A DNA stretch of 64,000 nt from Bdellovibrio sp. NC01 (GCF_006874625.1 NZ_CP030034.1:3348001-3412000); one strand, 5' to 3'; counted from the first letter of the stretch, positions 32,358 through 48,966 are shown. The notes: generated from the letters alone by a model not told the origin. Numbers and translations: made by a program.

Positions 32358-32402
32358 TATTTTTCCATGACTTGACTTCGGTCTGTGCATAACAATTATG
32401 AA

Positions 32403-33398: not shown

Positions 33399-33400
33399 CC

Positions 33401-33437
33401 TTGTTCTCCTCTATTTTGGACACCTAAAATAGAGGAG
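33401..33437 (+). promoter_or_regulatory. Promoter overlapped by a perfect 12-bp palindrome, abutting the ATG at 33438
   Basis: TTGTTC (33401-33406), 18 nt, TAAAAT (33425-33430), then 7 nt to ATG. CTCCTCTATTTT (33406-33417) and AAAATAGAGGAG (33426-33437) are perfect inverted repeats with an 8-nt spacer, covering spacer, -10 and the bases up to the start codon. The element could be an operator, or an RNA hairpin ending the upstream gene. Confidence 0.55.
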
Positions 33438-34373
33438 ATGAATCCTTTAAAACTATTCAAGCCCTACTTCGATCTCACTCTTGGTTCTAAGAAGTCAAAT
33501 GTGACACGCATTCTGGAAAGACCCGGATTGTGGATGACTCCCGAACAACTCAAACAACTTGTTGAAGATCTACGCACCGTTGTTAGTTCACTGAATATCG
33601 GTGAACTTGATTATGGAATCGTTAAAGGCAGTAAGCAGGCATTGGATAATGCCGTCATTACTTTGATTTATGATGGTCCTTCAGGAAAGCCATTCGCGTT
33701 CAATGCACTGACAATCATGACATGTACGGTGCGTGGTCATACGCAACAAGTTGTGCATTTAGGATTGGTTGCCGTTGATCCAAGCGCGCGCGCCAAAGGT
33801 TTGTCGTGGATTCTTTATGGTCTTACGACGTTCTTGCTATTTATTAAAAATCGTTTCAAGCCAATTTGGATCTCGAACGTCACGCAAGTGCCCGCGATCA
33901 TCGGGATGGTTTCTGAAAGCTTTGGTAACGTTTATCCAAATCCACTGAAGAAAACTCGCAGATCTTACGATCACCTGGTTTTGGCGCGCGAAATTACGAC
34001 TCGTTATCGTTATGTATTTGGTGTTGGACCAGAAGCGGAATTCGACGAAGATGCTTTCGTCTTGAAGAACGCTTACACAGGTGGCAGCGACAACTTGAAA
34101 AAAACTTTCGAGCAAGCGCCGAAACATCGTAACCCCATTTACAACGATTTCTCGAATCAAACATTAGACTACAATCGCGGCGACGATATTCTGCAATTGG
34201 GTCAAATGGATGTCAGCTCATACTATCACTACATGATCCACACGATTCCCAAGGGTTCCGCGTTGATCTTGTTTTATAAAATCGTATTCAGCTCCATTGA
34301 GTTTTCTTTAGTTCCCATTATTCAATGGTTCTCGACTAGCAAACAGATGGGCAGCTTGAGGCCACGTAAATGA
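33438..34373 (+). CDS. GNAT-like protein, unknown substrate
   Basis: A 311-residue protein. The central stretch HLGLVAVDPSARAKGLSWILY (about 115-135, written here in part) resembles the acetyl-CoA-binding motif of GNAT enzymes (V.P..R..G), and the surrounding strands fit the fold. The C-terminus carries a hydrophobic segment (SALILFYKIVFSSIEFSLVP) that could sit in or on the membrane. A GAGGAG touches the ATG with no spacing, so it cannot act normally; a leaderless start from the promoter at 33401-33430 is more likely. The next gene overlaps by 4 nt (ATGA), so the pair should act together. Substrate unknown. Confidence 0.65.
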   Translation: MNPLKLFKPYFDLTLGSKKSNVTRILERPGLWMTPEQLKQLVEDLRTVVSSLNIGELDYGIVKGSKQALDNAVITLIYDGPSGKPFAFNALTIMTCTVRGHTQQVVHLGLVAVDPSARAKGLSWILYGLTTFLLFIKNRFKPIWISNVTQVPAIIGMVSESFGNVYPNPLKKTRRSYDHLVLAREITTRYRYVFGVGPEAEFDEDAFVLKNAYTGGSDNLKKTFEQAPKHRNPIYNDFSNQTLDYNRGDDILQLGQMDVSSYYHYMIHTIPKGSALILFYKIVFSSIEFSLVPIIQWFSTSKQMGSLRPRK

Positions 34374-35620
34374 ATTTAAATCAGAACTTTCAAATCTTTG
34401 ATGCCTCGTTATCGTTGTTAGGTGCATTGGGTATTTGGCCGGCACTTCGCCGTTTGTATCGCCAAGAGTCTTTGAACCCTCTCGAGATCCGTCTGTGGGG
34501 TATCTTGGCTTCCATGATGGCGTTGTTCATCGTGCGCTTCCCGCTGACGGCTTTTGATATCAAAGCGTTCGGTGGAGCAACTTATATCGCTGCTGTGTGG
34601 TTGGCGTTCTTTGTGTTTTTATACTTCGAGGGCATGCTTCGTAAGCACATGCCATTCGTTTTAAAACTATTCATGGCTGTCGGCAGTATCGCGTTTGTGA
34701 TCGATGCCCTTGCCAACAATCTTTCAGGAAATAAACCGCACTTGATGGCTTTTGGCGCATTCATGTTAATCGCGCAAATTTCTGTGGCACTGGTTACGTT
34801 GTTCCGTAACCGCAAAGAACACAGTCGCTCTGAAAATACTCTTTTAGATATTTCAGTGCTTGGTCTGATCTTGTTGGGCCCTTTGTTCCTGACGGACGTT
34901 ACAACTTATGGTCTGCCACACATTCCAAAGTTGGGCGCCCTGGGTGGTTTGTTGTTCACGTACTTCTCATTGTTCAATCAGGCCTTAGTTAAAGATCGCA
35001 GCTTTGTGATCCGCAAATTAGGTAAGACGTTATTGTTTGCAGCAGTGCTGCTCGCTCCAGCGTCACTGTTGTTTGAGGACTTTAACTGGGACGTCGGACT
35101 TCGTCTGTATGTGTTCTTGGTCGATGTCTTACTCGTATTCCGTATTCACTCTGCAGTGAAGGTTCTGAACGGCGAAGACGACTTCTTTAAGTTCGTGCAT
35201 CAGTTTGTTTCGTCTGAAAAAACGACGTTTCAAGGGTTGCTTGATAAAATCGCTGAAGTCTTTGAAAAAACGGACTTCAAAGTTTGTTCTGGCAAAGACC
35301 TTCATGGCTATGACCTTCCAAAGATCATGAACTTCTTTAAACTGAACCAAACGCATATCTTCAATTTAGAAGACATCCGTCAGGTTTTGTTTGATGAAGG
35401 CAAAAAAGCGAATTTGCCTAAAGATGAACTTCAAATCTATGAAGAAATGCAGCACTTGATGGAAGAGCACAGCATGAACTATCTGTGTCTGCTATCAGAA
35501 AAAAATGGGGACATGCTTTTGCTGCACATCCCTTACGTTGCCTATAACGAAATCGTTCGCACGAAGACCGCTCTGATCCGCGATTATGCGAAATTGCTCG
35601 AGCGTCCTACAACAGCTTAA
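34370..35620 (+). CDS. Multi-pass membrane protein with cytoplasmic C-terminal domain, sensor-like
   Basis: A 416-residue protein with about seven to eight membrane helices in residues 10-270 (AAVWLAFFVFLYFEGML; LIAQISVALVTLFRN; LLFAAVLLAPASLLF), resembling the 7TM N-terminal region of some histidine kinases. The C-terminal 150 residues (DFKVCSGKDLHGYDLPKIMN; YEEMQHLMEEHSMNYLCLL) are soluble but show no kinase, GGDEF or phosphatase motif. It overlaps the GNAT-like gene by 4 nt. Its 3' end overlaps the convergent cytochrome gene by 14 bp. Function unknown; a sensor or a transporter-like partner of the GNAT-like protein are both possible. Confidence 0.7.
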   Translation: MNLNQNFQIFDASLSLLGALGIWPALRRLYRQESLNPLEIRLWGILASMMALFIVRFPLTAFDIKAFGGATYIAAVWLAFFVFLYFEGMLRKHMPFVLKLFMAVGSIAFVIDALANNLSGNKPHLMAFGAFMLIAQISVALVTLFRNRKEHSRSENTLLDISVLGLILLGPLFLTDVTTYGLPHIPKLGALGGLLFTYFSLFNQALVKDRSFVIRKLGKTLLFAAVLLAPASLLFEDFNWDVGLRLYVFLVDVLLVFRIHSAVKVLNGEDDFFKFVHQFVSSEKTTFQGLLDKIAEVFEKTDFKVCSGKDLHGYDLPKIMNFFKLNQTHIFNLEDIRQVLFDEGKKANLPKDELQIYEEMQHLMEEHSMNYLCLLSEKNGDMLLLHIPYVAYNEIVRTKTALIRDYAKLLERPTTA

Positions 35621-37298
35621 GATACTCTAACAAATCTTTCTTTTGATCCTGTGAAAGGCCCGCGAAGGGCTTTTCATGGCCTTTGTTAGAACGACCTGGT
35701 TGAGTCGTATCGTATTCCGTCGGCAAACTCCATGGTTGATAATCTTGTGGGTAAACGTATTTACCGTCTTCGTTCAGCTCACCTTTGATACCAACAAGCT
35801 GCATATCCAATGCATGTCCGCCCAATTCAAATTTCACTGGGCGCAGTTCTGGATTCATTAATTGCCACAATGTTGGAACAGAGCCGTTGTGAAGATACGG
35901 AGCCGTATACCACAAACCCGACAAAATCGGCGCCACATAACCGCCCATTGAATGACCGGCATCAACGTATTTACCAATCGCCGTTTTATCGCTGTAGTCT
36001 TTAATAGCTTGATCGACGTTCTGCCAACGAAGCGGGTCCGTACCAATCGCTTCCGATTTCATGAACTTATTCGGAAAGCTTAAAAGCTGAGGATTCAGGC
36101 CGTCTGAATAAACGCCATGACATTGCGAACAGCTTTTCGCAAATACTTGTGAACCACGAAGTGCCGCTTCGCTATCGATGACACCTGGATATGCCGGTGG
36201 TTTGTTATACTGAAGAACCGAAAAGATTTCTTTCACACGCGGCACCGCTTTTTCCGCATTTCCCATCGTGTTGCCCATGGCAGAGAACGTAAAGAAACTT
36301 GCAAGCTCTGCCAGCTTAGAACCCCATGACGGATTCATAGCTTCGTTTCTTTCGATATTTCTGAAGCGCTCGGTGTTCTTCACACCGTAAGCACCATCAT
36401 AAGTTAATGACGAACGGAAACCACGGTAAGAGATATCAGGAATCGACACGAAACCTGCTTCATGGGGATCATAAACAAAGGCGTCTTTTTTCAATTTCGC
36501 ATCACGCTTAAAGGCGCCTACACCGTTCGTGATCCCAGCTCCACCATTCGGGAACGGCAGAACTTTTCCAGACTTCGCTTCCATCTTCGCGAGTTCTTTT
36601 TTAATGATCGGCAATAGGTCTTTAGAAATAGTTTTGTATTCAAGCGCATCGATATTTGGATAAGCTTCTTTCAATTTAGCCAAGAACAAATCCGGATTGT
36701 TCGCTGCGATCTTAAGGCCTTTATAAATTCCGCCTAAGAAACCATCGAAATTCAACGAACTATTCGGAGCACCCAACCACACATTTCGTGTCGGCATACC
36801 TTGCGCATCGTAAGTTACGCCACCGTGGCAGGCAGCACACGTGATATTGGCCACCTCAAGGCCCATGCGACGGCCCACGATATTCACTTCAATATTTTGT
36901 CTTACCAAACCAAAAGTTTTTTCGCCCGTCAACTCGGGACGAACTGCCAAATCATCGCGCCAGTTAGCAATGCCTTGCGCACGAATGAAACCGAATTTCT
37001 GCATGGTTTTAGGAAGATTTTTTCCATCAATTTTTTGTTGAGTGTCTTGAGCATCAGCCAACAGCAAGGCTGTCCCGTAAACTTTCAAAGGTAAGATATT
37101 GGTATTCATCAAGCCGTTCAACGACAAGGAATTTAAGCTGTCGTAAACGAAGCGCACCTGCCCCAGGTTTTTCTGCTCCCCGTTTTTTTCGCGATAACGA
37201 TTGAACTCTAAAGAGTCCCACGGAGTCTCTAGACAACCTGATAAAAGCGCGCAAAACGACACTGCTGTCAAAAGCTTATATACCTTTGAGTGCTTCAT
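35607..37298 (-). CDS. Di-haem c-type cytochrome lipoprotein, RoxA/peroxidase-like
   Basis: A 563-residue lipoprotein: the leader ends LLSGC with lipidated C22. Two haem-binding motifs are present, CAACH at 154-158 and CSQCH at 390-394. The C-terminal TAPYLHNGSVPTLWQL segment is typical of the RoxA-type/di-haem peroxidase-like cytochromes. It should be exported, haem-loaded and held at a membrane facing the periplasm or outside, acting in electron transfer or as a peroxidase or oxygenase. AAGGA lies 7 nt before the ATG. It appears monocistronic, flanked upstream by a terminator and downstream by a convergent gene. Confidence 0.82.
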   Translation of the reverse strand: MKHSKVYKLLTAVSFCALLSGCLETPWDSLEFNRYREKNGEQKNLGQVRFVYDSLNSLSLNGLMNTNILPLKVYGTALLLADAQDTQQKIDGKNLPKTMQKFGFIRAQGIANWRDDLAVRPELTGEKTFGLVRQNIEVNIVGRRMGLEVANITCAACHGGVTYDAQGMPTRNVWLGAPNSSLNFDGFLGGIYKGLKIAANNPDLFLAKLKEAYPNIDALEYKTISKDLLPIIKKELAKMEAKSGKVLPFPNGGAGITNGVGAFKRDAKLKKDAFVYDPHEAGFVSIPDISYRGFRSSLTYDGAYGVKNTERFRNIERNEAMNPSWGSKLAELASFFTFSAMGNTMGNAEKAVPRVKEIFSVLQYNKPPAYPGVIDSEAALRGSQVFAKSCSQCHGVYSDGLNPQLLSFPNKFMKSEAIGTDPLRWQNVDQAIKDYSDKTAIGKYVDAGHSMGGYVAPILSGLWYTAPYLHNGSVPTLWQLMNPELRPVKFELGGHALDMQLVGIKGELNEDGKYVYPQDYQPWSLPTEYDTTQPGRSNKGHEKPFAGLSQDQKKDLLEYLKLL

Positions 37299-37356
37299 TG
37301 CTTATTCCTTTGTTTACTTACCTTAGGAAATAAACAAAGCAAAGACAGCGCCAACG

Positions 37357-37386
37357 AAAAAGCCCCGGAATCACCCAGGGCTTTTT
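37357..37386 (-). terminator. Rho-independent terminator of the eight-gene operon
   Basis: AAAAAGCCC and GGGCTTTTT form a 9-bp stem with T-rich sequence on both strands, 25 nt after the ThiF-like stop. On the minus strand it ends the operon that begins at 45703. Confidence 0.85.
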
Positions 37387-37411
37387 GGCTTTTTATATCT
37401 GAAATTTAATA

Positions 37412-38275
37412 CTAACTAAGACTCTTTAAGAACTTACGAACGAAGGATCTTTTAATCACGTTCAAAGGGAATTTCAGCGGCTTTTCAACGCGCATTTTCC
37501 AAGGATTCCAGAAAATCCCGCGATACGTCGCCTGCGTTTTTTTATTCAAAAGAACTTTCATCGCCTCGTAACTCATCATGATGCCGGTGCCCCACACCAT
37601 CGGAGCCAGCGAAATTCTTTTTCTTTTACCCGTAATCATTTCCGCTGCATATTTCAAAACCACATGATCGGAACTTGAGGAATTCGTTAGGACGTATTCC
37701 ATCTCTTTACCCGAACATTCCTTCACCATTTCATCCGTCAAACCCTCAGGGCGCAAACGCACCGAAGGAAATTGCATGAATTCTTCCGGACGAGGATCTT
37801 GCGGTTTCACGACGTAAACATTCGGCAAAGTAGAGGCAAAAGCATCGATTACCGTCTTGTTGTGATCGCGACCAGCACGCATCAACAACAACGTCGCTTT
37901 CACGTCATCGCAGCCGTTAATAACTAAATCCACACGCGGCATGATCTCATTCAAACGATCAGGCCACTCACCACCCCAAACTTCCAATTGAATTTCAGGA
38001 TTAATTTTTAGCAGAGCTTGGCGCGATACTTCCGCCTTCGACATGCCCACTGTATCCAAATTTGAAAAGATCTGACGATTGAAGTTACTGACTTCAAAAG
38101 TATCGATATCGGCGATGATGAATTTGCCTACACCCACACGTGCAAGACAGGCAAGAGCTGCTCCGCCCATGCCGCCGACTCCTGGAATGAAGATCGTGCT
38201 ATTGCGAAGTTTGGCTTGTTCTTCTTCAGTGATAAAACCTAAGTTGCGAGTGACAAATTCTTCATAGCTAAACAT
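37412..38275 (-). CDS. ThiF/MoeB-like E1 adenylating enzyme
   Basis: A 287-residue protein of the E1-like superfamily, which adenylates a carboxyl group, often of a carrier protein or peptide. The nucleotide site IPGVGGMGGAAL and the ATP-contacting DTFEVSNFNRQIF and GMSKAEVSRQ segments are present, as is NGCDDVKATLLL. The paired CxxC zinc motifs of MoeB/ThiF are not obvious. The frame is open from a GTG at 38287; the ATG at 38275 overlaps the upstream stop as TAATG and has GGAG 11 nt away. It directly follows a nitroreductase-like gene. A ThiF-nitroreductase fusion (Rv1355c family of mycobacteria) suggests the two act in one reaction. Confidence 0.75.
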   Translation of the reverse strand: MFSYEEFVTRNLGFITEEEQAKLRNSTIFIPGVGGMGGAALACLARVGVGKFIIADIDTFEVSNFNRQIFSNLDTVGMSKAEVSRQALLKINPEIQLEVWGGEWPDRLNEIMPRVDLVINGCDDVKATLLLMRAGRDHNKTVIDAFASTLPNVYVVKPQDPRPEEFMQFPSVRLRPEGLTDEMVKECSGKEMEYVLTNSSSSDHVVLKYAAEMITGKRKRISLAPMVWGTGIMMSYEAMKVLLNKKTQATYRGIFWNPWKMRVEKPLKFPLNVIKRSFVRKFLKSLS

Positions 38276-39249
38276 TATTTTTTCCACTCCATCTCTTGAT
38301 AAGAAAGACGAGCTGGTGCTGGCTTCTTATAAGAATCGCCCAGTGGACCGACTCTTAAAACGTTCACAATTTCTTGGCCTTTGGTATTCAATTTCTTTTG
38401 CACCAAATCCAAAGCAGGCTTGTCATCAGTTAATAACGATAGCGGCGCACCGAACAGATTCATCTCTGTCAAAGTCAGCCACGCACGCATAAACGCGCGG
38501 CCCTTATCGATATCATTATGTGATTTACATAAAATCACGGCTAAGGCTGAAGCAGATTGAATTTGTCCCGCTTCACTTACAAGAGCTTTCGCCATTCCAA
38601 GCTTTGCCAAGAAATCAAAAATTGATTTCTTCAAAACAACCGAGGCTCCCCATGCTTCCACTCCGCTAAGGCTCATTGATTCCGTATTCAAGCCATCCTT
38701 CGACCATTTGGGATGAGACGAACTAAAACGCATCCACGAATAAAGTTCTTCCAGATATCCAGGCAAAGTCAGAAAGCGGTAATTCACGTTATCGAAGATT
38801 TGTGAAACATCTTTTAAATCAGCAGGCTTCGTCAAAAACTCAATCGTAAAACCATCACTTGTTGCCAAGTGATTTTGGATTGATTTCTTCTTAGTGAATT
38901 TACCACGATAACTAAAACGTCTTGTCAGTTGATTGGCTAAAACATCTTTAGGCACACCGCTTGTGCGTTTTAAACGCGCCATCGGTTGACCTTGTTCAGC
39001 CGTTTGTTTTGCTTCGACAATTTCAATGCCTTCTCCCTCTGCCGACATTGCGATCGCCAAAGTTTCAATCAACGCACCTAGTGACTGACGCAAATCCTTT
39101 AAATGCGGATCGCCGACAGGTAAAAGTCTTTGAAAGTCTACATATACTAAAATTTCTGAATCCGAGGGAAACGCTAGACGAAACGGTTGCACGTTATGCG
39201 CGCTAATACTTAACGTCGCGGCTTTCAGAATTTGTTCTTTAGTCATCAT
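38275..39249 (-). CDS. Nitroreductase-like (Acg-type) FMN protein
   Basis: A 324-residue protein that resembles the nitroreductase superfamily, Acg/Rv3131 branch. The N-terminal ISAHNVQPFRLAFP corresponds to the FMN-contacting HN.QPW.F pattern, and LLPVGDPHLKDLRQSLGALI fits the following helix. LTRRFSYRGKF is the R.S.R-type segment common in this group. GGA precedes the tandem ATGs. Its stop overlaps the ThiF-like start, and the GNAT-like gene lies 27 nt upstream, so it is part of the eight-gene operon. Substrate is unknown; oxidising a bond formed by the adjacent E1-like enzyme is a hypothesis. Confidence 0.68.
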   Translation of the reverse strand: MMTKEQILKAATLSISAHNVQPFRLAFPSDSEILVYVDFQRLLPVGDPHLKDLRQSLGALIETLAIAMSAEGEGIEIVEAKQTAEQGQPMARLKRTSGVPKDVLANQLTRRFSYRGKFTKKKSIQNHLATSDGFTIEFLTKPADLKDVSQIFDNVNYRFLTLPGYLEELYSWMRFSSSHPKWSKDGLNTESMSLSGVEAWGASVVLKKSIFDFLAKLGMAKALVSEAGQIQSASALAVILCKSHNDIDKGRAFMRAWLTLTEMNLFGAPLSLLTDDKPALDLVQKKLNTKGQEIVNVLRVGPLGDSYKKPAPARLSYQEMEWKK

Positions 39250-39276
39250 ACCGGTTCCTTACTGTCGCCTAAATTC

Positions 39277-40380
39277 TTAGACAGACTTTCTGTAAAGGTT
39301 CAATTCATGCATCAAAGTCGCATTTAACTTTTCTGCCTGACGTAAAGAGGCTTTGTTATCCAATGAAATCCAAGTTCCACCGAAAGTCCTATAACCACGA
39401 CGCTTCAGTGCCGACATAATATCGTAAAGCATCACACCATTAAGACCACGTGATTGGAACTCTTTATAAACGGAATAGAAAATGATCGTCGCTGATTCGC
39501 GACGGAGTTTATGCATTAAGAAATGATATGGCGTCGTAATACCAAATTTCGAACCGATCGCTTTTAAGAACGGATTCAAATTTGGGATACAGATCAAAAC
39601 GCCCACCGGCTTGCCTTCGTAGTTGGCAATAACCGAAGTCTCTTTATCAATGATCAGCATCATGTCTTTAGCTTGGAAATAAATTTCTTCAGAAGTCAGT
39701 GGCACGAACATCGGGTTTTCAGAAAACCCATGGTTCAAACACTGTCTCATCGCTTCCATAACTTTTTCTAAGTTATCACTTTGTAGTTTTTCAAACGTAT
39801 ACTTCGGATCTGCCATGATCTCTTTTTGTTTTGGACCAAGCAGGCTTTCAGGATTGAATGCTTGAATATCTACTTCATGAGTGACCATTGGGAATGTCGC
39901 TTCATAGCCACACTTTTCCAAAAGCTTCGCGACGTATTCCGGGGCAAACACTTGATCCGTGTAGTGATAATTTTTATGAATTTTTGTTACGACACCGATC
40001 ATCTGCATCGCCGTCATGTTGAAGTTACCAATCACTTCATTGCAACCATGCGACTTCGCGAACTCTTCCGCTTTTTTAAGTAGCGCTTGCGCGACCTCAA
40101 CATCATCAATCAAATCAAAGAAACCGTAATAAGCTCTTTTCCAACCATACTTTTCATTCGATGCATGATGGATATGAGTCAGAATGCGACCCGCCAACTT
40201 ACCGTTTTTGTAAGCGGTGAAATAAGAAAAATCCTTTTCTGTTCTGAATAACGGATTTTTCATACTTAAAAAGCGTTCAAGGTCCATTTTCAACTGTGAT
40301 ACAAATGGAAAATCTTTTGGATAAACCACTGACGGAGTTTTGAAAAAGTCGTTAAAGTTCTTCTCTTTAATTTCAACCAT
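39277..40380 (-). CDS. YghO-like GNAT-family acyltransferase
   Basis: A 367-residue cytoplasmic protein of the long GNAT type. Markers are NPLFRTEKDFSYFTAYKNGK, GRILTHIHHASN, YGFFDLIDDVEVAQALLKKA, and GNFNMTAMQMIGVV in the first half; YEGKPVGVLICIPNLNPFLK and YKEFQSRGLNGVMLYD in the second. These match my memory of the E. coli YghO group, to which the bacterial ceramide synthase of Caulobacter has been related. GGGAG precedes the ATG. It lies 11 nt after the outer-membrane barrel gene. N-acylation of a lipid base or amine is plausible but not shown by the sequence. Confidence 0.65.
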   Translation of the reverse strand: MVEIKEKNFNDFFKTPSVVYPKDFPFVSQLKMDLERFLSMKNPLFRTEKDFSYFTAYKNGKLAGRILTHIHHASNEKYGWKRAYYGFFDLIDDVEVAQALLKKAEEFAKSHGCNEVIGNFNMTAMQMIGVVTKIHKNYHYTDQVFAPEYVAKLLEKCGYEATFPMVTHEVDIQAFNPESLLGPKQKEIMADPKYTFEKLQSDNLEKVMEAMRQCLNHGFSENPMFVPLTSEEIYFQAKDMMLIIDKETSVIANYEGKPVGVLICIPNLNPFLKAIGSKFGITTPYHFLMHKLRRESATIIFYSVYKEFQSRGLNGVMLYDIMSALKRRGYRTFGGTWISLDNKASLRQAEKLNATLMHELNLYRKSV

Positions 40381-40391
40381 AGTGGCTCCCT

Positions 40392-41648
40392 TTACAGCGC
40401 CCAGCGGACGCCGACGCTGCCTTGCACGCCGTACAACAAACGAAACTCTGTATTTTCTTTTCCGAATGAGCTAAGAACTTCAAGATATCCAGTCCACGCA
40501 TCACTTAATGCTTTATCCGCGCTGACTTGCACAACACCCGATTGATCCTGCATTGATAAAATATTTCTCATGTACAGGCTGGCATCTTTCTTTTTACCCA
40601 AATCTGGGACGCGCAAAGAAAGATACAGGTAGTTCTGACCTGGCAGTTCCAACCCTGAGTGCGAATAGCGCTTCAAGTTTTCAACCAGATACGGATTCGG
40701 AAAGGTAATACCTTGAATTGAATATTTCAAAGCATCTGCATCCCAGCCAAGGCCATTATAAAACCACTCTAAACGGACATCGACACGTCCTTCATAACGG
40801 ATACCCCAATCGGCGATCGTAAACATCTGGCCCGAATCAGGATTCGTTTCAACCAGCTGTACGAAGCCCATACCATCAACAACAGGATCATAACTGTAAC
40901 TGCCGATGCTGTGGCGAAGATCCGCATAGAACGAAAAAGCGTCTGTAATATACCAATCAAAGTATTCACCAAAGAACGGACGACCGTAACCTTCCGTACC
41001 CGCAACGGCGCCTAAGAACGAACTGCCGGCGCCATGATATTCGACCTTCAATGTCGATTTCGGTTCGAATTCTTTTTCAACTTGGAACGGCTGTTCGTTG
41101 TTACTGATCGGTTCACCAATAGCAACCAAACTCCAATTCGGCGATGGCGTATAATTCACACGCGCAAGGACCAAACCTTTTTGCACAAAAAAGAAACTGC
41201 GCTGGTCGTTACTGAAATGGAAGAATACGTTCGATGGATTGATGAACTCACCCGGTCCCCATTGATACACTTGCAGACCTGCGACTGCTTTCCACTTTTC
41301 AGAGATATCCCAATCAAGATACGCTGCCGTTAAATCAAGCTTCCCTTTCGACATTGTCGAACTTGAATCCGGGTTTTCTTTTTGTGTCCAGGTATTATTC
41401 AAAGTCCAACGTGGACGAAACACCCACTTTGTTTTCGGAGTCAGAACATTAAAATCATCACGCAAATCGACCGTCGCCGTATTATACGGAAGGCCTAAGA
41501 TCTGGTTGTCAGGATTAATGCCATTATTTAATGGCTCGGAATAAGTATCGTACAAATACGTTTCAAAGGTATTGCGAAATTCCCACTTCGCGGCTTGCGC
41601 AACACTCGAAGCCGCTAAAATTAGAAACAAGGGCAGCAGTTTAAACAT
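40392..41648 (-). CDS. Outer-membrane beta-barrel protein of the Lol-like operon
   Basis: A 418-residue exported protein: signal peptide (ILAASSVAQAAKW), then alternating strands rich in Tyr, Trp and Gly (LDLTAAYLDWDISEKWKAV; ADWGIRYEGRVDVRLEWFY) through to a C-terminal GSVGVRWAL. The size fits a 14-18-strand barrel. Its start overlaps the end of the second permease gene by 8 bp, so it is tightly linked to the ABC transporter. It could be the outer-membrane acceptor or channel for the transported molecule. I do not recognise a precise family. Confidence 0.78.
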   Translation of the reverse strand: MFKLLPLFLILAASSVAQAAKWEFRNTFETYLYDTYSEPLNNGINPDNQILGLPYNTATVDLRDDFNVLTPKTKWVFRPRWTLNNTWTQKENPDSSSTMSKGKLDLTAAYLDWDISEKWKAVAGLQVYQWGPGEFINPSNVFFHFSNDQRSFFFVQKGLVLARVNYTPSPNWSLVAIGEPISNNEQPFQVEKEFEPKSTLKVEYHGAGSSFLGAVAGTEGYGRPFFGEYFDWYITDAFSFYADLRHSIGSYSYDPVVDGMGFVQLVETNPDSGQMFTIADWGIRYEGRVDVRLEWFYNGLGWDADALKYSIQGITFPNPYLVENLKRYSHSGLELPGQNYLYLSLRVPDLGKKKDASLYMRNILSMQDQSGVVQVSADKALSDAWTGYLEVLSSFGKENTEFRLLYGVQGSVGVRWAL

Positions 41649-42963
41649 GCCCTAGGTTCTCCACGATCTTTTTACGTAAAGTGCCACGACATACAAGTGC
41701 CGTCACCACCAAACCAATCGAAATCAACACGGCTGCTGCCACGATATATACGATCAAAGCCGCTTTGATGTGGAATGGAACCGGCATCGATAGCAAGCCT
41801 GCTTTATAATAGATACCCGCGTGATTCACGATGAAGCTTGTCACGAGGGCTGCAACCGCTCCGATAATGATACCCATCGCTGACAAAAAGAACGACTCCC
41901 ACATAAAGATGTTGCGAATAAAGCCAGGTGAAAAACCAAGACTGCGCAGAGTACCGATTTCTTTTGTACGTTCTTTAATTGATTTAATTTTCGTATTCGC
42001 TACCGACAGCGTCGTAATCGAAATAATGATAATCACAACGAAGTTTCGGAAAACTGACAACAAGTCGATCGATTTACGATACAACTCTCCAACGGGATGA
42101 TCCTGCCAGCGAGTCAAACGCAGGTCCGGATATTTACTGCCGATTTGTTCATTAAAACGTTTTTCAAATTCATGACGGTACTTTTGATCTTTCATTAAGA
42201 ACGTCACGTACGAAACTTTGTCAGTGTTCATCAACTGTTGTGCCGCCGGAAGCGACATCATAATGAAACGGTTATCGATTTCTTGATAACCACCATCAAC
42301 GAAACCCGCGATATCGAAATCCATCGCGTTAAGCTGTCCTGATTCCGTTGTCACACTCATTTGCACTTGCGGGCTGTCGCAATCGAACGGACGTTCTTCC
42401 GCAATGTAACCTTGATCGGGACTCATGATTTGTACGGGTTTGGTGTGACAGCTTAGGGAACGACCTAAAATTTGTCCCACTAGAATCGCATTGGGATTAT
42501 TCGTTAAATGCAGTGGCTTACCGTAAAGAGCATTCCAACCCCAAACCGGTTCACGCATTTTTTTGGATTCTTCAATATCCATCGCTTTCGCAAAGAAAAT
42601 CACCGACGTTTTACCGTTCGTCACCATGCCCTGCAAAGCCAAAAAACGAGCTGATTCTTCAACGATATCAGAGTTCTTTGCGGTGAACTCTTTCATGGCC
42701 TTTTGCTCATCCGCAGTCACGGCATATTGAAAAGGTTCGGCACGGCCTTCTGGAGTTTGGGCTTTTGCGTTTTCCACGACAAAATCCCCGAACATATTGC
42801 GTGAATGGTAACCATCATAATAAAGATCACCGACATCGCGAATGTAACCTTCAAAGAACACAATAGAATAAAAAGCGGCAACAACTGATAGAAGTGCCGA
42901 CAATGAATGTCGCCAATTCACCATTACGTTTCTAAATGCCAGCGAGATCAGTCGTTGCTGCAT
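41641..42963 (-). CDS. FtsX/LolC/E-type ABC transporter permease (second)
   Basis: A 440-residue permease: one N-terminal helix (SLAFRNVMVNWRHSLSALLS start), a large periplasmic domain (about 45-300), then three C-terminal helices with the FtsX signature (TKIKSIKERTKEIGTLRSLG). The cytoplasmic EIGTLRSLGF segment contacts the ATPase. It pairs with the permease at 43710-45017 and the LolD-like ATPase. The family includes LolCDE (lipoprotein release) and MacB (efflux), and neither can be chosen from sequence alone. It lies 19 nt after the LolA-like gene. Confidence 0.85.
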   Translation of the reverse strand: MQQRLISLAFRNVMVNWRHSLSALLSVVAAFYSIVFFEGYIRDVGDLYYDGYHSRNMFGDFVVENAKAQTPEGRAEPFQYAVTADEQKAMKEFTAKNSDIVEESARFLALQGMVTNGKTSVIFFAKAMDIEESKKMREPVWGWNALYGKPLHLTNNPNAILVGQILGRSLSCHTKPVQIMSPDQGYIAEERPFDCDSPQVQMSVTTESGQLNAMDFDIAGFVDGGYQEIDNRFIMMSLPAAQQLMNTDKVSYVTFLMKDQKYRHEFEKRFNEQIGSKYPDLRLTRWQDHPVGELYRKSIDLLSVFRNFVVIIIISITTLSVANTKIKSIKERTKEIGTLRSLGFSPGFIRNIFMWESFFLSAMGIIIGAVAALVTSFIVNHAGIYYKAGLLSMPVPFHIKAALIVYIVAAAVLISIGLVVTALVCRGTLRKKIVENLGHV

Positions 42964-42982
42964 GATCTAAAGTATCCTTATC

Positions 42983-43708
42983 TTAGCGGCTCAAGTTATT
43001 GATGTTGAACAATGAAGCGGCGTGGTTTTCAACTTTCGGTTCGTCGTAGCTGATCACGCTCTTATTGTCTTTGAATTTAGCATCAACGATCGTCATTTTA
43101 CTTACGAATGGATTTTTCTTACCACCGACAGTGATTGTGTTTTTATACTCCATCTCGCCAACTTTAAAAGTCTGACCTTGCAAAGTCAGGAATTCAGCTT
43201 TTTCAGCCAATTTCGTTTTACCGTTGATGTAGTAACGAATTTGATCGTAAGTCAGATTCGGAGATTTCGCTTTTAACAACAAAACATAGATTTTATCAGC
43301 ACCACGCGCTTCGGTTTTTTCCAAAGTCGCCGTGTAGTCACGTGCATAGTGGGTACTTGCGATATCACCGTTTGCGGCCTGACCACTCAATTTCTGACGA
43401 GGAGAAATCGACACTGGCTTTTTCAAGCTTGGTTTAAAGAACCACATATTGCGATCATTGAACAAATAAACTTCACCCTTAGTTCTTGCAGGCGCTGTTG
43501 CCTCAACCAAAGCGTCATGTTCTTTCGCTTTGACGATGAATTCACGTTCAGACGTTTCGCCGTCTTCAGTCGTTTCAATTTTCGTTTTCCATGTCAAACC
43601 GCCTTCGATACCACCACGAGCACCGTCAGACGCTTTCAAAAGATCAGACGCCATATCGGCATATGAAGTACTTGCACAAAGAAGAAGAACACATAACAAG
43701 CTTTTCAT
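42983..43708 (-). CDS. LolA-like outer-membrane lipoprotein-sorting protein
   Basis: A 241-residue periplasmic protein: signal peptide (CVLLLCASTSYAD), then a half-barrel fold of the LolA/LolB type. The segments VYLFNDRNMWFFKPSLKKPV, RQKLSGQAANGDIASTHYA and YINGKTKLAEKAEFLTLQGQ are characteristic of the COG2834 'outer membrane lipoprotein-sorting' group, which carries lipid-like cargo across the periplasm. It lies between the two permease genes with gaps of 1 and 19 nt. This is probably not the housekeeping LolA but a dedicated carrier for this transporter. Confidence 0.82.
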   Translation of the reverse strand: MKSLLCVLLLCASTSYADMASDLLKASDGARGGIEGGLTWKTKIETTEDGETSEREFIVKAKEHDALVEATAPARTKGEVYLFNDRNMWFFKPSLKKPVSISPRQKLSGQAANGDIASTHYARDYTATLEKTEARGADKIYVLLLKAKSPNLTYDQIRYYINGKTKLAEKAEFLTLQGQTFKVGEMEYKNTITVGGKKNPFVSKMTIVDAKFKDNKSVISYDEPKVENHAASLFNINNLSR

Positions 43709-43709
43709 T

Positions 43710-45017
43710 TTAAGCTCCTGTATCTGCTAAGAGTTCAATGATTTTAGATTTATTTTTAATATAACTAACGATCGCGGCACTGATTGTCGTCAACGCAATC
43801 AAGAACAGCGCGGCCCCTAAACACAGGCCCACATTCAAGATCAACAAGAACTGAATCGAACCTTGAGTTCCCGGAGGACTAAATTGAATATTCGCTGAAT
43901 TCACTGCCGAAGCGATAATCAACGAACAAATCAGACCTGCCCCTACGCCAAGACTGCCCAGTAAGAACACTTCTTGAACGAACAAAGAAGACACTTTACC
44001 TGGAGTAAAGCCAATCGCACGCAAAGTTCCGATCTCTTTCAAACGCTCAAGCAGCCCCATCGTTGTGGAGTTTACGATCGACAAAATGATCGCACCACAA
44101 ATCAAGAAGATGAAGAACGTGATCATCACGTACAAGAAACCCATCGATCCGACAAAGTATGAATTCCACGCTTCATCATTGTAAGCGTAAACCTCCATGG
44201 GCAAGCCCTGCGCATCGAGTTCTTTCTGCAACATCTTCTTGAATGACGACGTGTCGCCGACGTGCTTCAAGAAGACCGCCATATATTCGATGCCATCCGT
44301 TGAATACAGCTGCTGCAATAACGCTAACGGAGCACGCAAACTGGTATCTTCCGCTAATGAAAGACCTGTCGTATGCACAGTTCCTAAATCAGCGTTCACG
44401 GCATTCAGATCATTATAAAAACTCTTACCTGCCAACTGCACCGTACGAACATTTTCCGGAAGATTTGACAGATCTTGCGGCAACCCTAGAAGCTCTGCCA
44501 TTCGGTGAGTAATGGAAATCTGCAATGGGTTTTTAATAAAGTCGTCAAACTTATCGCCTTCTTTGCGAAGAACCCAGTCACTGGCCCACTTCAAGGGTTC
44601 GGGATGCATATTCGTCTTTTGATAGACTTCAGGTTCAAATCCCAAAGCAATGAATGGAACGGACTTATGACCATTCGAGATCAAACCAGTCCCTGTTAAA
44701 TATTTACCCGTGAATTCGATTTGATCCGCATGAGCTTTTAAAATGTCATCAAGCTTTACGATCTCTTCACCGTTGATCACATATTTTTTAGGTTTCGAAA
44801 AATACGATGTTAAAGAATCTTTTTTAACGATCGCGATATGACCTTTGTGATTCAAATAAACGCTTGCCGCACGCAAACCGCTTTGCGCACGAACTAGATA
44901 CGCACCCAACAGCACTAAACCGATGTAGCCCGTTAAAATAGCAATACCCGTCGCAAGACTGCGGCGCTTATTACGAAGCAAATTTCTGAAAGCCAACTTC
45001 CAGCTAAGTGATTCCAT
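43710..45017 (-). CDS. FtsX/LolC/E-type ABC transporter permease (first)
   Basis: A 435-residue permease with the same layout as the one at 41641-42963: N-terminal helix (FRNLLRNKRRSLATGIAI), large periplasmic domain and three C-terminal helices, including GLLERLKEIGTLRAIGF at the ATPase contact. It shares one base with the stop of the ATPase gene upstream. Two different permeases in one operon imply a heterodimeric transporter like LolCE. Confidence 0.86.
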   Translation of the reverse strand: MESLSWKLAFRNLLRNKRRSLATGIAILTGYIGLVLLGAYLVRAQSGLRAASVYLNHKGHIAIVKKDSLTSYFSKPKKYVINGEEIVKLDDILKAHADQIEFTGKYLTGTGLISNGHKSVPFIALGFEPEVYQKTNMHPEPLKWASDWVLRKEGDKFDDFIKNPLQISITHRMAELLGLPQDLSNLPENVRTVQLAGKSFYNDLNAVNADLGTVHTTGLSLAEDTSLRAPLALLQQLYSTDGIEYMAVFLKHVGDTSSFKKMLQKELDAQGLPMEVYAYNDEAWNSYFVGSMGFLYVMITFFIFLICGAIILSIVNSTTMGLLERLKEIGTLRAIGFTPGKVSSLFVQEVFLLGSLGVGAGLICSLIIASAVNSANIQFSPPGTQGSIQFLLILNVGLCLGAALFLIALTTISAAIVSYIKNKSKIIELLADTGA

Positions 45018-45703
45018 TAGCCGTTCTCGATCTGTCCGTCGGCGATACGCACAACTCTGCCCACACGACCCATCAATTTTTCGTCATGAGTACAGAAGAA
45101 GAATGTCACGTGGCGCTTTTTATTAATCTCTAAAAGCAAATCGATAATTTTGTGAGTCGTATCAGAATCCAAATTCGCAGTCGGCTCATCAGCCAAAATC
45201 AAAGCGGGTTCTGTTACAAGAGCGCGCGCAATCGCAACACGCTGACGTTGACCGCCGGAAAGTTTATTCGGCAAATAGTCGCGGAATTTTTCCAAGCCCA
45301 CGTCTTGAATTGCTTGTTCAACACGACGTTTTCTTTCTTCGGCAGAAAGATCGTGTTGCACGATCAACGGCAATTCGATGTTTTCAAAAACCGTTAAGAC
45401 CGGAATTAAGTTAAACGATTGAAAAATGAATCCAACGCGACGATTGCGCAAGTGACTTAACTCTTGTTCGCTCATCTTAGCGATGTCTTGACCTTCAATT
45501 TCAACGGTGCCGTTATCAGGAATATCTAAACAGCCAATCAGGTTCAGCAAAGTACTTTTGCCTGATCCGGAAGCCCCAATAAGCGCCGTAAATTCACCCT
45601 TATAAAGAGTCAAATTGAGGCCGCGTAAAGCTTTTACTTCTGTTTCGCCAAGTTGATAGGTTTTAACTACTTGCTGCACTTTTACAATAGGCTGTGAATT
45701 CAT
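45017..45703 (-). CDS. LolD/MacB-type ABC transporter ATPase
   Basis: A 228-residue ATPase with Walker A GASGSGKS (43-50), Q-loop in IFQSFNLIPVLTV, signature LSGGQRQRVAIARAL, Walker B LILADEPTANLDS and a switch His in FFFCTHDEKL. This is the LolD/MacB/FtsE subgroup that works with FtsX-type permeases. The frame is open far upstream (45862), but the ATG at 45703 begins the conserved domain and gives the family length. No Shine-Dalgarno is visible before it, and no strong promoter. It is the first gene of the eight-gene operon. Confidence 0.9.
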   Translation of the reverse strand: MNSQPIVKVQQVVKTYQLGETEVKALRGLNLTLYKGEFTALIGASGSGKSTLLNLIGCLDIPDNGTVEIEGQDIAKMSEQELSHLRNRRVGFIFQSFNLIPVLTVFENIELPLIVQHDLSAEERKRRVEQAIQDVGLEKFRDYLPNKLSGGQRQRVAIARALVTEPALILADEPTANLDSDTTHKIIDLLLEINKKRHVTFFFCTHDEKLMGRVGRVVRIADGQIENG

Positions 45704-45861
45704 AAACTTTATTCTGAATTTGTTTTTCTGGGATGGGCACAACTTCCTCACCAAGCCAGACTTAAGATGGGCGATTCTGCGTCCGTTTGGGAGCGACTTC
45801 ATCTCCGCAGTGGTGCCGTTTTGGATATTCATTTTATGAATGACGGAATTCGAATCATTCA

Positions 45862-45891
45862 TTGGAACCTAAACCCGATTGCCCATATAAG
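45862..45891 (+). promoter_or_regulatory. Sigma-70-type promoter for the secreted protein at 45914
   Basis: TTGGAA (45862-45867), 18 nt, TATAAG (45886-45891); AGAGGTG precedes the ATG. It lies in the 210-nt divergent region before the ABC operon. Confidence 0.5.
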
Positions 45892-45913
45892 AGTCCCTCT
45901 TTAGAGGTGAACC

Positions 45914-46414
45914 ATGAAAGCATTATTTATCCTACTTCTTACATTCTCTGCAGCCGTAGCGAAGGCTGACCTTAACGATGAATTCACAAATTTTATTGTG
46001 ACGTATTCAGAACAATCTCATTTGTATGGCGAGCGTGAAGTAAAACTTGAAAAATTTTCCCCAGCGCAACAAGCACAGCTCTTGAAGCTTGCAACAGCTG
46101 AAGCTGACATTTGGGTCGATACAATTCTGGAAGGCGATTATGCTCTTACAAATGATCCCTTGACGATCGACATGGTGACAGCTTTGTACCAAGGTCAAAA
46201 ACTGGTTGCATATCAAATCGTGTATTCACAACGCGCGTTCGATACTTCAAACTGTGAATATGATTTTGAAGCGTTAGACGATAAGAGCTCGAATGTTGAT
46301 GAAGTGTTTGCACAATGCACTCAAGGTCGTATTTACGGGACGTCTTTCGTGTCGCCAAACCTGCAAGTTGTTGAAAGAGACATCAACAATATCGAATACT
46401 TCGAAGAACAGTAG
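45914..46414 (+). CDS. Small secreted protein of unknown function
   Basis: A 166-residue exported protein with a clear signal peptide (LLTFSAAVAKAD) and an acidic mature part of about 148 residues. Two Cys (SNCEYDF and FAQCTQG) could form a disulphide. No family is recognised. GAGGTG lies about 5 nt before the ATG. It stands alone between the divergent ABC operon and a bidirectional terminator. Confidence 0.75.
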   Translation: MKALFILLLTFSAAVAKADLNDEFTNFIVTYSEQSHLYGEREVKLEKFSPAQQAQLLKLATAEADIWVDTILEGDYALTNDPLTIDMVTALYQGQKLVAYQIVYSQRAFDTSNCEYDFEALDDKSSNVDEVFAQCTQGRIYGTSFVSPNLQVVERDINNIEYFEEQ

Positions 46415-46440
46415 TTCTTCCCTAGTCTAATTTAGACATA

Positions 46441-46504
46441 AAAAAGCCGCGAGATCCTGTTACACTCCCGCTTCGCTGGAGTAGGCATTCGCGGCATTTT
46501 TTTT
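46441..46504. terminator. Bidirectional rho-independent terminator
   Basis: AAAAA-GCCGCGA (46446-46452) pairs with TCGCGGC (46489-46495), followed by A and eight T. An inner ACTCC/GGAGT pair extends the stem. It lies between convergent genes ending at 46414 and 46522. Confidence 0.85.
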
Positions 46505-46521
46505 GAACTTCTTAAAGCGAA

Positions 46522-47826
46522 CTACTGAATGTAGTGCACGTACATCTTCAGATAAAAACCTTCAGGGAATTGCATCAGCGTTGGATGGTCCGCCGCATGG
46601 CCACCACGCAAAACACTGCGCACTTCTGTGTAGTTACGCAAAGAGGCTTTACGAATAGCATCGCGGAACTCTTCTTCCTCTAGCAAACCAGAGCATGAAC
46701 AAGAAGCCACGAAGCCGTTTTTCTTCGTTAAACGGAAAGCGTGTGTGTTCATCTTCACGTAAGCCGCTTTACCCGTCGGAATATCTTTTTTCGCTTTAAT
46801 AAACGCCGGTGGATCAGCGATGCAAATGTCATAATGCTGACTTGGCAAATTCGCTAAACCTTCAAGCACGTCCATTTCGTGAACCGTGACTTTAGCTCCT
46901 TCACGTTCTGCATTTTCTTTTGCAAACGCCAAAGCCGTTTTAGAAACGTCGACCAAGTGCACTTCCACTTCAAAACCTTGAGCCTTCAAAGCACGAGTGA
47001 TTTGCGTCGACCAGTGACCGACATAACAACAAAGATCCAACACACGGATCACTTTCGTGTTTTGTTGTTTTGCCCAGTTCTTAAATAAATTTACGGCCAA
47101 ATAAATATTATGAGTTTGATCCAAGAAGAAGCCTGTCTTTTGGCCCTCTTTTAAATCACAACTCATTTTGATAACGCCTTCGTCAGCAGCAGCATTCAAC
47201 AAGATCTCAACATGTTCCAAGTTGAAGCCTGGAAGATCTTTGATCACAAGCGGAGCATTGACCGTCATGCCTTCAAGTTTGCGAATACCAACGTCGTTAC
47301 GAATCACAACTGCTGTTTCATCCCACGAGAATGGCGAAAAGCCTTGTGCCTTTGCTTTTTCAGTCAAACCTTTAAAGAACTCTTCTGAATTCTTCAAAGC
47401 TTCATCCATACCTGCTGTCACAAGCTGAGCAACGAAAACTTGCGCCTTCTTGCCGTTTTGTTCGATCAAATAATAATCAAGTACCAGACCCGGAATATAA
47501 TCAGACTCGCCGAAACACAAACGGAAGCTACCACGGAAACCTGCGGCTTTACGAACTTTCCATGACGTAAATACTTTTTCGTGAAGGAAATCAAAACTTG
47601 TCGGCTGTGCATCTTGGCTATTGAACGTCAGGGCACGAAACGCAATCAACGAATGCGGATTGCCGTAACCACGAGCTAAAAACTGCCCTTTCGCGTCTTG
47701 CAACTCCACCGCTGACCCAGGAGGTAAACCTTTTGGCGATGCCGATAGTTCATTCGAAAATACCCACGGATGGCCCGAGCGCACACGTTTATCCGCACCA
47801 GGGCGAAGTCTCCATACTGTCATCAT
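46522..47826 (-). CDS. RlmI-like class I rRNA cytosine methyltransferase
   Basis: A 434-residue enzyme: N-terminal PUA domain (VWRLRPGADKRVRSGHPWVF; PPGSAVELQDAKGQFLARGY) and a Rossmann methyltransferase domain with VLDLCCYVGHWS as motif I, the catalytic-site DICIADPPAFIKAKKDI and the late SCSCSGLLEEEEF with its cysteines. This is the RlmI family that makes m5C in 23S rRNA. It is slightly longer than E. coli RlmI. It starts 3 nt after the esterase-like gene and ends the folD-led operon. Confidence 0.83.
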   Translation of the reverse strand: MMTVWRLRPGADKRVRSGHPWVFSNELSASPKGLPPGSAVELQDAKGQFLARGYGNPHSLIAFRALTFNSQDAQPTSFDFLHEKVFTSWKVRKAAGFRGSFRLCFGESDYIPGLVLDYYLIEQNGKKAQVFVAQLVTAGMDEALKNSEEFFKGLTEKAKAQGFSPFSWDETAVVIRNDVGIRKLEGMTVNAPLVIKDLPGFNLEHVEILLNAAADEGVIKMSCDLKEGQKTGFFLDQTHNIYLAVNLFKNWAKQQNTKVIRVLDLCCYVGHWSTQITRALKAQGFEVEVHLVDVSKTALAFAKENAEREGAKVTVHEMDVLEGLANLPSQHYDICIADPPAFIKAKKDIPTGKAAYVKMNTHAFRLTKKNGFVASCSCSGLLEEEEFRDAIRKASLRNYTEVRSVLRGGHAADHPTLMQFPEGFYLKMYVHYIQ

Positions 47827-47829
47827 AGC

Positions 47830-48966
47830 TTATTCACCTTCGACTGCGAAAACGATGAACTCTGTCAGTTCATTTTTAGAAAAATTATTATCAACCATCA
47901 CCAGAAGACTGCGACGGCCATCTGGAAGAGTCGGACCCCAAGCCATGGCTTCGAAGTTTTGAATTGTCTTCGTGCCACGTTCTTTCGTTAGATCCGTTTC
48001 GAAGTCGACCAATTTAACTTTATCGACTGTTTTGTATTTGCCATCTTCCAATTTATCCATGGCAAGAGTGCTTGTGCCCTTGGAAAGATCCGCCAAGTAG
48101 ATCGCAACTGTTTGCGCCCACAAGTGTTGACCTAAAATACGCACACCACGTTCCATCACAAGAAGTTTTGTTTCTGACAACGCTAAGATTTCAGAAACGC
48201 CTCTCATCACTTCTTTGCCTTTGTCGTTATCTTTGAAGGCATCGATGTGATATGCGAACTCAGTAACGGGTTTATAGGAAGCCGCGCTGGCTTGCCCACC
48301 TGACTGAGTTGATGAAAGCTGATTTTCGAATTTCAAAATACGAATGACATCGCCGTCAGCTTCTTTGCCACTGACGATATCTTGAGACAAACAAGCTTCA
48401 GTACTTGTAAAAACAAACTTGCCATCGTTCCAAGTCGTTAAACCCTCGAACGCCAAATTGTTTTGAATGCCTTTTGTTTGTTTGCCAGTTCTTTCAGGTA
48501 GATATTTTTCTGGAACCGGAAGATCTAACTTCCATGCACCGTCAGCCGACGCTTTAAAAATTCTTGGCATCGAACGTGGTTTCGCGTCGTTGCTGCCTTC
48601 AGAAGAAATAAAAATATCGCCAGAAGAAAGACGGATCAAACCTTCAGGATCAAGCATCGCTTTACGCTCACCATCCAGAGGCAGACCTGTCACAAAGTGT
48701 ACGGACTTTGGTGTCAGCGTGATCTTTTTGTCTTTTTCAATCTTCAAATCGAATTCATAAAAACGAGGATCGCCGACACGACCTTTATCATCAGACAAAG
48801 CAGTCAACGTGCCATTTTGAAAAGCGATTGCCGACAAACCACCGATCGTTGTCTTTTCATACTTCGTTCCTGTTGGGATTGAAGTCTCACCAAAATATTC
48901 CAAACGCAAAGCGTGGGCTTGAGCACAGGCGAAGAGCAACGAGAGTGCGATTAAATTCTTCATCAT
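47830..48966 (-). CDS. Secreted esterase-like phytase-family protein
   Basis: A 378-residue exported protein with signal peptide (SLLFACAQAHALR) and a beta-propeller-like body. GGLSAIAFQNGTLTALSDDK, LDPEGLIRLSSGDIFISSEG and NLAFEGLTTWNDGKFVFTS fit the 'esterase-like activity of phytase' family (PF13449 type), whose substrates are poorly known. The frame is open from 48978; the ATG at 48966 overlaps the Rieske gene stop as TAATG and has GGAG 6 nt upstream. Confidence 0.8.
   Translation of the reverse strand: MMKNLIALSLLFACAQAHALRLEYFGETSIPTGTKYEKTTIGGLSAIAFQNGTLTALSDDKGRVGDPRFYEFDLKIEKDKKITLTPKSVHFVTGLPLDGERKAMLDPEGLIRLSSGDIFISSEGSNDAKPRSMPRIFKASADGAWKLDLPVPEKYLPERTGKQTKGIQNNLAFEGLTTWNDGKFVFTSTEACLSQDIVSGKEADGDVIRILKFENQLSSTQSGGQASAASYKPVTEFAYHIDAFKDNDKGKEVMRGVSEILALSETKLLVMERGVRILGQHLWAQTVAIYLADLSKGTSTLAMDKLEDGKYKTVDKVKLVDFETDLTKERGTKTIQNFEAMAWGPTLPDGRRSLLVMVDNNFSKNELTEFIVFAVEGE

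Follow-up and report, generated by a model that had tools for sequence, protein, structure and literature searches.

Gene content and organization of the locus

The window (the whole 64,000 nt stretch that was analyzed of the genome of the predator-type bacterium Bdellovibrio sp. NC01, NZ_CP030034.1:3348001-3412000) carries an island of 11 genes (Table 1). ORF calling on the window found eight tightly packed ORFs between positions 45703 and 37412, all on the minus strand, in agreement with the original prediction, which had also described short overlaps, gaps of at most 27 nt and a single terminator at the end. Calculated from the coordinates, the successive junctions are a 1 nt overlap (ATPase/permease 1), gaps of 1 nt (permease 1/LolA_like) and 19 nt (LolA_like/permease 2), an 8 nt overlap (permease 2/barrel), gaps of 11 nt (barrel/GNAT) and 27 nt (GNAT/oxidase) and a 13 nt overlap (oxidase/ThiF). 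The start of the ATPase gene at 45703 agrees with that in the congener G130. A strong hairpin and T-run were located 3' of the ThiF gene; this hairpin was not listed by a simple consensus terminator scan of the window. The unit nevertheless extends past 37412: three more genes of the same conserved module lie beyond the terminator, at 33438-37298. The full locus is the 11-gene island, and the eight genes first described are two units, a five-gene transporter and three enzymes, that have been joined in one lineage.

Table 1. Features of the 11-gene island, with positions counted from the first nucleotide of the window.
Feature	Position	Strand	Evidence
A311, GNAT-fold acyltransferase, candidate N-acyl amino acid synthase	33438..34373	+	Invariant YTGGSD-LKK motif
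B416, membrane protein	34370..35620	+	About 8 long N-terminal helices, small C-terminal alpha/beta domain
Di-haem c-type cytochrome, RoxA-like/di-haem cytochrome c peroxidase type	35607..37298	-	PF21419, 2e-19
Terminator, GC hairpin followed by T5	37299..37411 (113 nt after ThiF)	-	z = -5.2
ThiF/E1-like adenylating enzyme, candidate oxazolone cyclase	37412..38287	-	PF00899, 7.7e-38
Acg/TyzC-type flavin oxidase, nitroreductase superfamily, candidate desaturase	38275..39249	-	NF047509, 1.4e-35
GNAT, 367 aa, distantly YghO-like, second acyltransferase	39277..40380	-	GNAT, 3e-10
Probable outer-membrane beta-barrel	40392..41648	-	Signal-peptide-like start; transporter-linked in other genomes
FtsX/LolE-like permease 2	41641..42963	-	FtsX family and curated profile matches
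LolA_like periplasmic carrier	42983..43708	-	PF17131, 8e-29; signal-peptide-like start
FtsX-like permease 1	43710..45017	-	FtsX family and curated profile matches
LolD/MacB-type ABC ATPase	45017..45703	-	ABC_tran, 2e-38; LolD profile, 241.8 bits

The transporter genes

The ATPase, the two permeases (FtsX E-values of 2.5e-13 and 7e-15) and the carrier are recognizable by domain; the ATPase and the permeases scored below the curated cut-offs (241.8 against 307.75 bits for LolD; 39.2 and 66.9 against 362.45 bits for LolC/E). The LolA-fold carrier that belongs to a LolCDE system is present in the form of PF17131, which is the LolA_like family and not canonical LolA. A search for LolA in viral contigs found none. 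The product of the fifth gene was named by no domain library searched, and Porin_O_P was detected, below threshold, in two of its homologues only, so that its assignment as an outer-membrane barrel is likely but short of proof.

The enzymes and the genes beyond the terminator

The ThiF-like protein retains the glycine loop of the ATP site and, in alignments with MoeB and ThiF, an invariant Asp (D127) at the position of the Asp in the CTDN motif of MoeB, features of the adenylating cyclases of the Oxz, Tyz and Trz systems. It matches the MoeB and ThiF profiles, with a better score than that for the profile of Rv1355c (TrzS), and among the few ThiF proteins compared its closest relative is encoded beside a FeeM gene at locus L162, described below. 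The adjoining oxidase, whose ORF overlaps that of ThiF, is of the Acg/TyzC group; in Oxz, Tyz and Trz, too, the oxidase gene adjoins that for ThiF or is fused to it. Its score against NF047509, the Acg-family FMN oxidoreductase model, is below the cut-off, as are partial matches to NF005901 and NF011424, while its profile matched Acg 2ymv at 2.8e-24, the nearest-homologue structure used in PMC12856293. The N-acylation, adenylation and oxidation originally proposed for this gene set fit the characterized Oxz/Tyz/Trz chemistry.

The 367 aa GNAT shares 40–49% identity with its orthologues at other loci of the module and 22–25% with YghO-like paralogues. Its description as YghO-like holds in so far as it is distant kin of the YghO/'dATP pyrophosphohydrolase' family (~23–25%), but it is no established ceramide synthase, a function that we rejected because the protein is only ~23% identical to its Roseomonas relatives and the island is free of sphingolipid genes.

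Beyond the terminator lie A311 and B416, two conserved families without a name in Pfam or NCBIfam, and a cytochrome. The predicted structure of A311 (pLDDT 88) has a GNAT fold (Z ~10.7), and the family alignment contains 34 invariant columns. A genome scan detected 145 relatives; the best 80 of the 145 are ~45–52% identical and come from several phyla. Weak relatives of ~275 aa in four genomes (G091, G138, G031 and G016) have unrelated gene neighborhoods. As possible N-acyl amino acid synthases of the FeeM/AHL-synthase kind, the island has two GNAT-type proteins, A311 and the 367 aa GNAT, the profiles of which do not match each other. As A311 showed no profile match to the single FeeM sequence compared, it was not accepted as a direct FeeM homologue, and a synthase role is suggested by its fold and position. 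Neither an AHL synthase nor FeeM was among the structural matches listed for A311, which is no evidence against such a role. In B416 (predicted structure, pLDDT 91), the residues E87, H93 and K99 are invariant and lie within a loop or next to it. At most loci of the module, the B416 gene adjoins that for A311 or ThiF. The best structural match of B416, to 7TM receptors (E 0.03), was not significant and no fold was assigned. The cytochrome has CxxCH motifs at residues 154 and 390 and an LSGC lipobox, matches NF040606 at 1.5e-37 (below the cut-off), and has homologues beside the module in many loci.

A widespread enzyme module

The block A311-ThiF-(B416)-GNAT-oxidase occurs in Alpha-, Beta- and Gammaproteobacteria, Acidobacteriota, Gemmatimonadota, Eisenbacteria and Bdellovibrionota, usually in the order A311-ThiF-B416-GNAT-flavin oxidase and often with a convergent gene for a RoxA-like di-haem cytochrome. 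ThiF is present in 60 of 89 A311 loci and directly follows A311 in 59 of these 60, the exception being the lineage of the window (L032); A311 and B416 occur without ThiF in 28 loci. Where enough downstream sequence was available, GNAT was found in 38 of 46 ThiF loci, and since the other eight lack it, the N-acyltransferase shared by all is more plausibly A311. At L033, L034 and L035, which represent distant families of the phylum, the enzyme orthologues lie beside relatives of A311, B416 and the cytochrome, with no transporter. Judged by these neighborhoods, the three enzymes of the window belong to a widespread and uncharacterized module. No paper describing it was found in a literature search that reached few subscription journals. 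Module ThiF proteins may be present, without comment, in the networks of the published oxazolone studies.

The transporter outside the window, and the island in the genus

The transporter is a separate, conserved five-gene block. It is complete in G107 and G079, and cut by the contig start in G075, in each case without the enzymes. Of 144 genomes surveyed in the phylum, seven have the barrel and five a strong A311 match, and the two occur together only in the window genome (G000) and G130. The conserved eight-gene block that had been expected is accordingly not seen; with no co-occurrence outside these two genomes, the enzyme genes are not co-conserved with the transporter in the wider phylum, an outcome that the original prediction had itself named as refuting it.

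In the majority of module loci, no LolA_like gene lies closer than 10 kb, so that the transporter does not generally belong to the pathway. Apart from the window, the linkage was seen at L109 and L162 but at no other of the module loci examined, and is thus occasional. L109 (Gemmatimonadota) carries, in a row, genes for LolA_like, a hypothetical secreted protein, A311, ThiF, B416, the cytochrome, GNAT and an MMPL protein. L162 carries, in this order, genes for FeeM N-acyl amino acid synthase (PF21926, 3e-23; the ORF seems to be broken in the draft), ThiF and a nitroreductase, beside those for MMPL, a Wzi/DUF1302-like protein and LolA_like. Both are independent clusters in which such enzymes are paired with LolA_like and MMPL. 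With 54 occurrences in 59 genomes, PF17131 averages about one copy per genome in the phylum, so that chance is an unlikely cause of adjacency as close as tens of bases. In further Gemmatimonadota and Acidobacteriota, A311 carriers are rare (6/298 and 2/297 genomes, respectively), and no LolA or MMPL linkage was present in the stretches examined around five new carriers. In L150 and L153, transporter genes of the same families have NRPS-type or AMP-ligase genes nearby, and related ATPase-permease-LolA_like-hypothetical blocks adjoin genes for beta-ketoacyl synthases on plasmids. Taken with the pairings in the window, L162 and L109, these plasmid blocks suggest that amphiphilic metabolites have a generic LolA_like path, which the oxazolone-type pathway may have recruited here.

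Within the genus, the island (detected by A311) is present in two of 24 congeners and absent from 22. It lies between genes for a coiled-coil protein (32385-33398) and an rlm-like protein (46522-47826), each conserved in 23 of 24. Calculated from the coordinates, the flanks are 13.1 kb apart in G000 and 13.9 kb in G130, and from ~1.0 to 18.6 kb, commonly 2.5 kb, in the other congeners with both flanks on one contig. Different genes occupy this site in the seven congeners examined (in L174, only up to 366 nt before the rlm-like gene). Island GC content (0.438) is close to that of the flanks (0.45). Between G000 and G130, the 11 proteins are 68–92% identical. Four of the genes show saturation at synonymous sites; for the others, whose synonymous distance was computable, dN/dS is 0.02–0.08. 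All 11 genes have thus been kept together under purifying selection. Transporter and enzymes form one island, intact in two diverged species.

These observations bear on the possibility that two unrelated operons, a stand-alone Lol-like exporter of lipoprotein or drug type and a set of oxazolone-type enzymes, have come to lie end to end by chance. The transporter without enzymes in G107, G079 and G075, and enzymes without transporter at most loci, are what it would lead one to expect. We nevertheless consider it unlikely, because the 11 nt junction in the window is equally close in G130, the joined set has been retained through divergence that saturates synonymous sites, transporter, enzymes, A311/B416 and cytochrome jointly fill a variable site between conserved flanks, and similar pairings occur in L109 and L162.

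Proposed function

The best explanation, to which we give a probability of roughly 0.55, is an 11-gene island in which a pathway of the oxazolone/N-acyl-dehydroamino-acid type has captured an ABC-LolA_like-barrel export path. The gene content, the domain assignments, the conservation of the module, the unity of the island and the purifying selection are observed, and from them we infer the chemistry, the order of the steps, the identity of the acyl acceptor and the substrate and direction of transport. A cytoplasmic acyl-amide pathway would yield a lipophilic small molecule: an amino group would be acylated by a GNAT-fold synthase, probably A311, with the 367 aa GNAT as a second acyltransferase; ThiF would adenylate the carboxyl group and then catalyze its cyclization; and the Acg/TyzC-like flavin oxidase would carry out the desaturation. 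The ABC-LolA_like-barrel path would then take the product out of the inner membrane, across the periplasm and into or beyond the outer membrane. Outside the cytoplasm, the final product or an intermediate would probably be oxidized by the RoxA-like di-haem lipoprotein, and B416 may be an accessory membrane protein. The more specific proposal of an envelope system, with an oxazolone-like N-acyl amino-acid lipid that is finished by the di-haem protein in the periplasm and delivered by this path to the outer membrane, is tentative and less likely than not. The dedicated make-and-place pathway that was first predicted gains from the single island in two diverged species and from the L109 and L162 pairings, but not from any wider co-conservation.

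It is improbable that ThiF instead activates a small ribosomal peptide or a ubiquitin-like protein by adenylation of its C-terminus, as in RiPP synthesis or protein conjugation, with GNAT and the flavin oxidase as tailoring enzymes. E1-like enzymes together with flavin oxidases do occur in RiPP systems, and the window ThiF matches MoeB/ThiF, but the packed or overlapping genes of the module leave little room for a further gene at the loci examined (ORFs shorter than ~80–100 aa fall outside the listing), no YcaO or peptidase is seen in the module, and the closest ThiF relative among the few compared is linked to FeeM. Synthesis of a sphingolipid- or ceramide-like envelope lipid, with GNAT as the ceramide synthase, is very improbable: GNAT is ~23% identical to the 'dATP pyrophosphohydrolase' family whose gene lies beside those for LptF/LptG permeases and a sterol desaturase family protein in Roseomonas, but serine palmitoyltransferase and CerR-like genes are absent from the module and the island, the YghO-like proteins of the phylum are a separate and widespread family (~25% identity), and that pathway has no step for either ThiF or the flavin oxidase.

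What is new at this locus is the joined set of enzymes and transporter, each part alone being known or widespread. If the proposed delivery to the envelope is correct, the island would supply an exporter for a class of metabolites whose role, that of bacterial oxazolones and N-acyl dehydroamino acids, has been called a major unresolved question (PMC12856293). The widespread five- to six-gene version of the pathway, with its outer-membrane path in one lineage, hints in a testable way at an action of the product in or beyond the envelope. Together with the unnamed families A311 and B416, it also provides a handle for genome mining.

Comparison with known systems

The transporter resembles LolCDE-LolA in its LolD-type ATPase, two FtsX/LolE-like permeases and LolA-fold carrier, but differs in profile scores below the LolD and LolC/E cut-offs, a PF17131 carrier, a barrel in place of LolB and the linkage to biosynthetic genes. 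FAS/PKS-like plasmid clusters of Enterobacter, Rahnella and Aliiroseovarius have ATPase, permease, LolA_like and a 450–495 aa hypothetical protein in a row; their chemistry is of the ketosynthase type, and carrier identity is 30–35% (Enterobacter, Rahnella) or 24–28% (Aliiroseovarius).

For the stieleriacine, thalassotalic acid and kyonggic acid clusters (NasY, ThiF and nitroreductase), the same three enzyme classes are the proposed set in the passages available of PMC12479983, which mention no LolA/ABC/barrel set; compared with the clusters as described there, the island has no methyltransferase and a different candidate synthase.

A further close likeness is to TyzACB, TrzAS and OxzAB of M. 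tuberculosis, M. smegmatis, Rhodococcus and Pseudoalteromonas rubra, with adjacent acyltransferase, ThiF-like cyclase and nitroreductase-superfamily flavin oxidase, a comparison that was made by enzyme class, profiles and published descriptions. TyzA, TyzB and TyzC produce C12 tyrazolone by N-acylation, ATP-dependent ThiF-like cyclization and O2-dependent desaturation, the last by a nitroreductase-superfamily oxidase (PMC10404671), and TrzAS performs the same steps with tryptophan, D217 and R540 of TrzS being needed for cyclase and desaturase activity (PMC12856293). The genes of the window are unfused, as in Tyz, and differ from all three systems in a putative synthase, A311, with no detected FeeM profile match, and in carrying an extra GNAT, B416, a di-haem cytochrome and an attached putative export path.

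Gene content at the variable site and elsewhere

The interval bounded by the coiled-coil and rlm-like genes, which holds the island in the window, varies in content across the genus, with differing genes filling about 1 to 18.6 kb in congeners; this interval is possibly an integration hotspot. In the congener G130, an additional gene (254 aa) separates ThiF from the cytochrome, and is absent from the window. A Rieske-type oxygenase gene of the window matches 4beta-methylsterol monooxygenase (NF052579) below threshold (105 bits of 600).

The window genome, G000, encodes a second LolA_like domain within an open frame of 1028 aa; several of the phylum's genomes contain long frames of this kind. 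At locus L162 (genome G115, same order), genes for FeeM, ThiF, nitroreductase, MMPL, Wzi/DUF1302-like and LolA_like proteins are grouped. The FeeM ORF is apparently broken, and a PilZ ORF lies behind it.

Partners of the module genes

Many Yoonia/Loktanella-type genomes carry the acyltransferase family A311 and the membrane protein B416 as a pair (L066, L073, L074 and about 25 more loci). Since the pair is kept without ThiF, GNAT or oxidase genes alongside, it may have a separate function of its own. Close to the module, 16 loci encode an Aas-like protein (MFS-PlsC-AMP-ligase, 1150 aa), which may hint at acyl supply.

Coordinates of the features described
Feature	Coordinates	Remark
Variable site	window 33399-46521	matching site in congeners
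Rieske-type oxygenase	window 48966-50006	
Additional G130 gene	L032:11057-11821	
Second LolA_like domain	G000:C1:1949240-1949785	
FeeM gene group	L162:5737-13931	
Aas-like MFS-PlsC-AMP-ligase gene	L042:6048-9506	similar gene in 15 other loci
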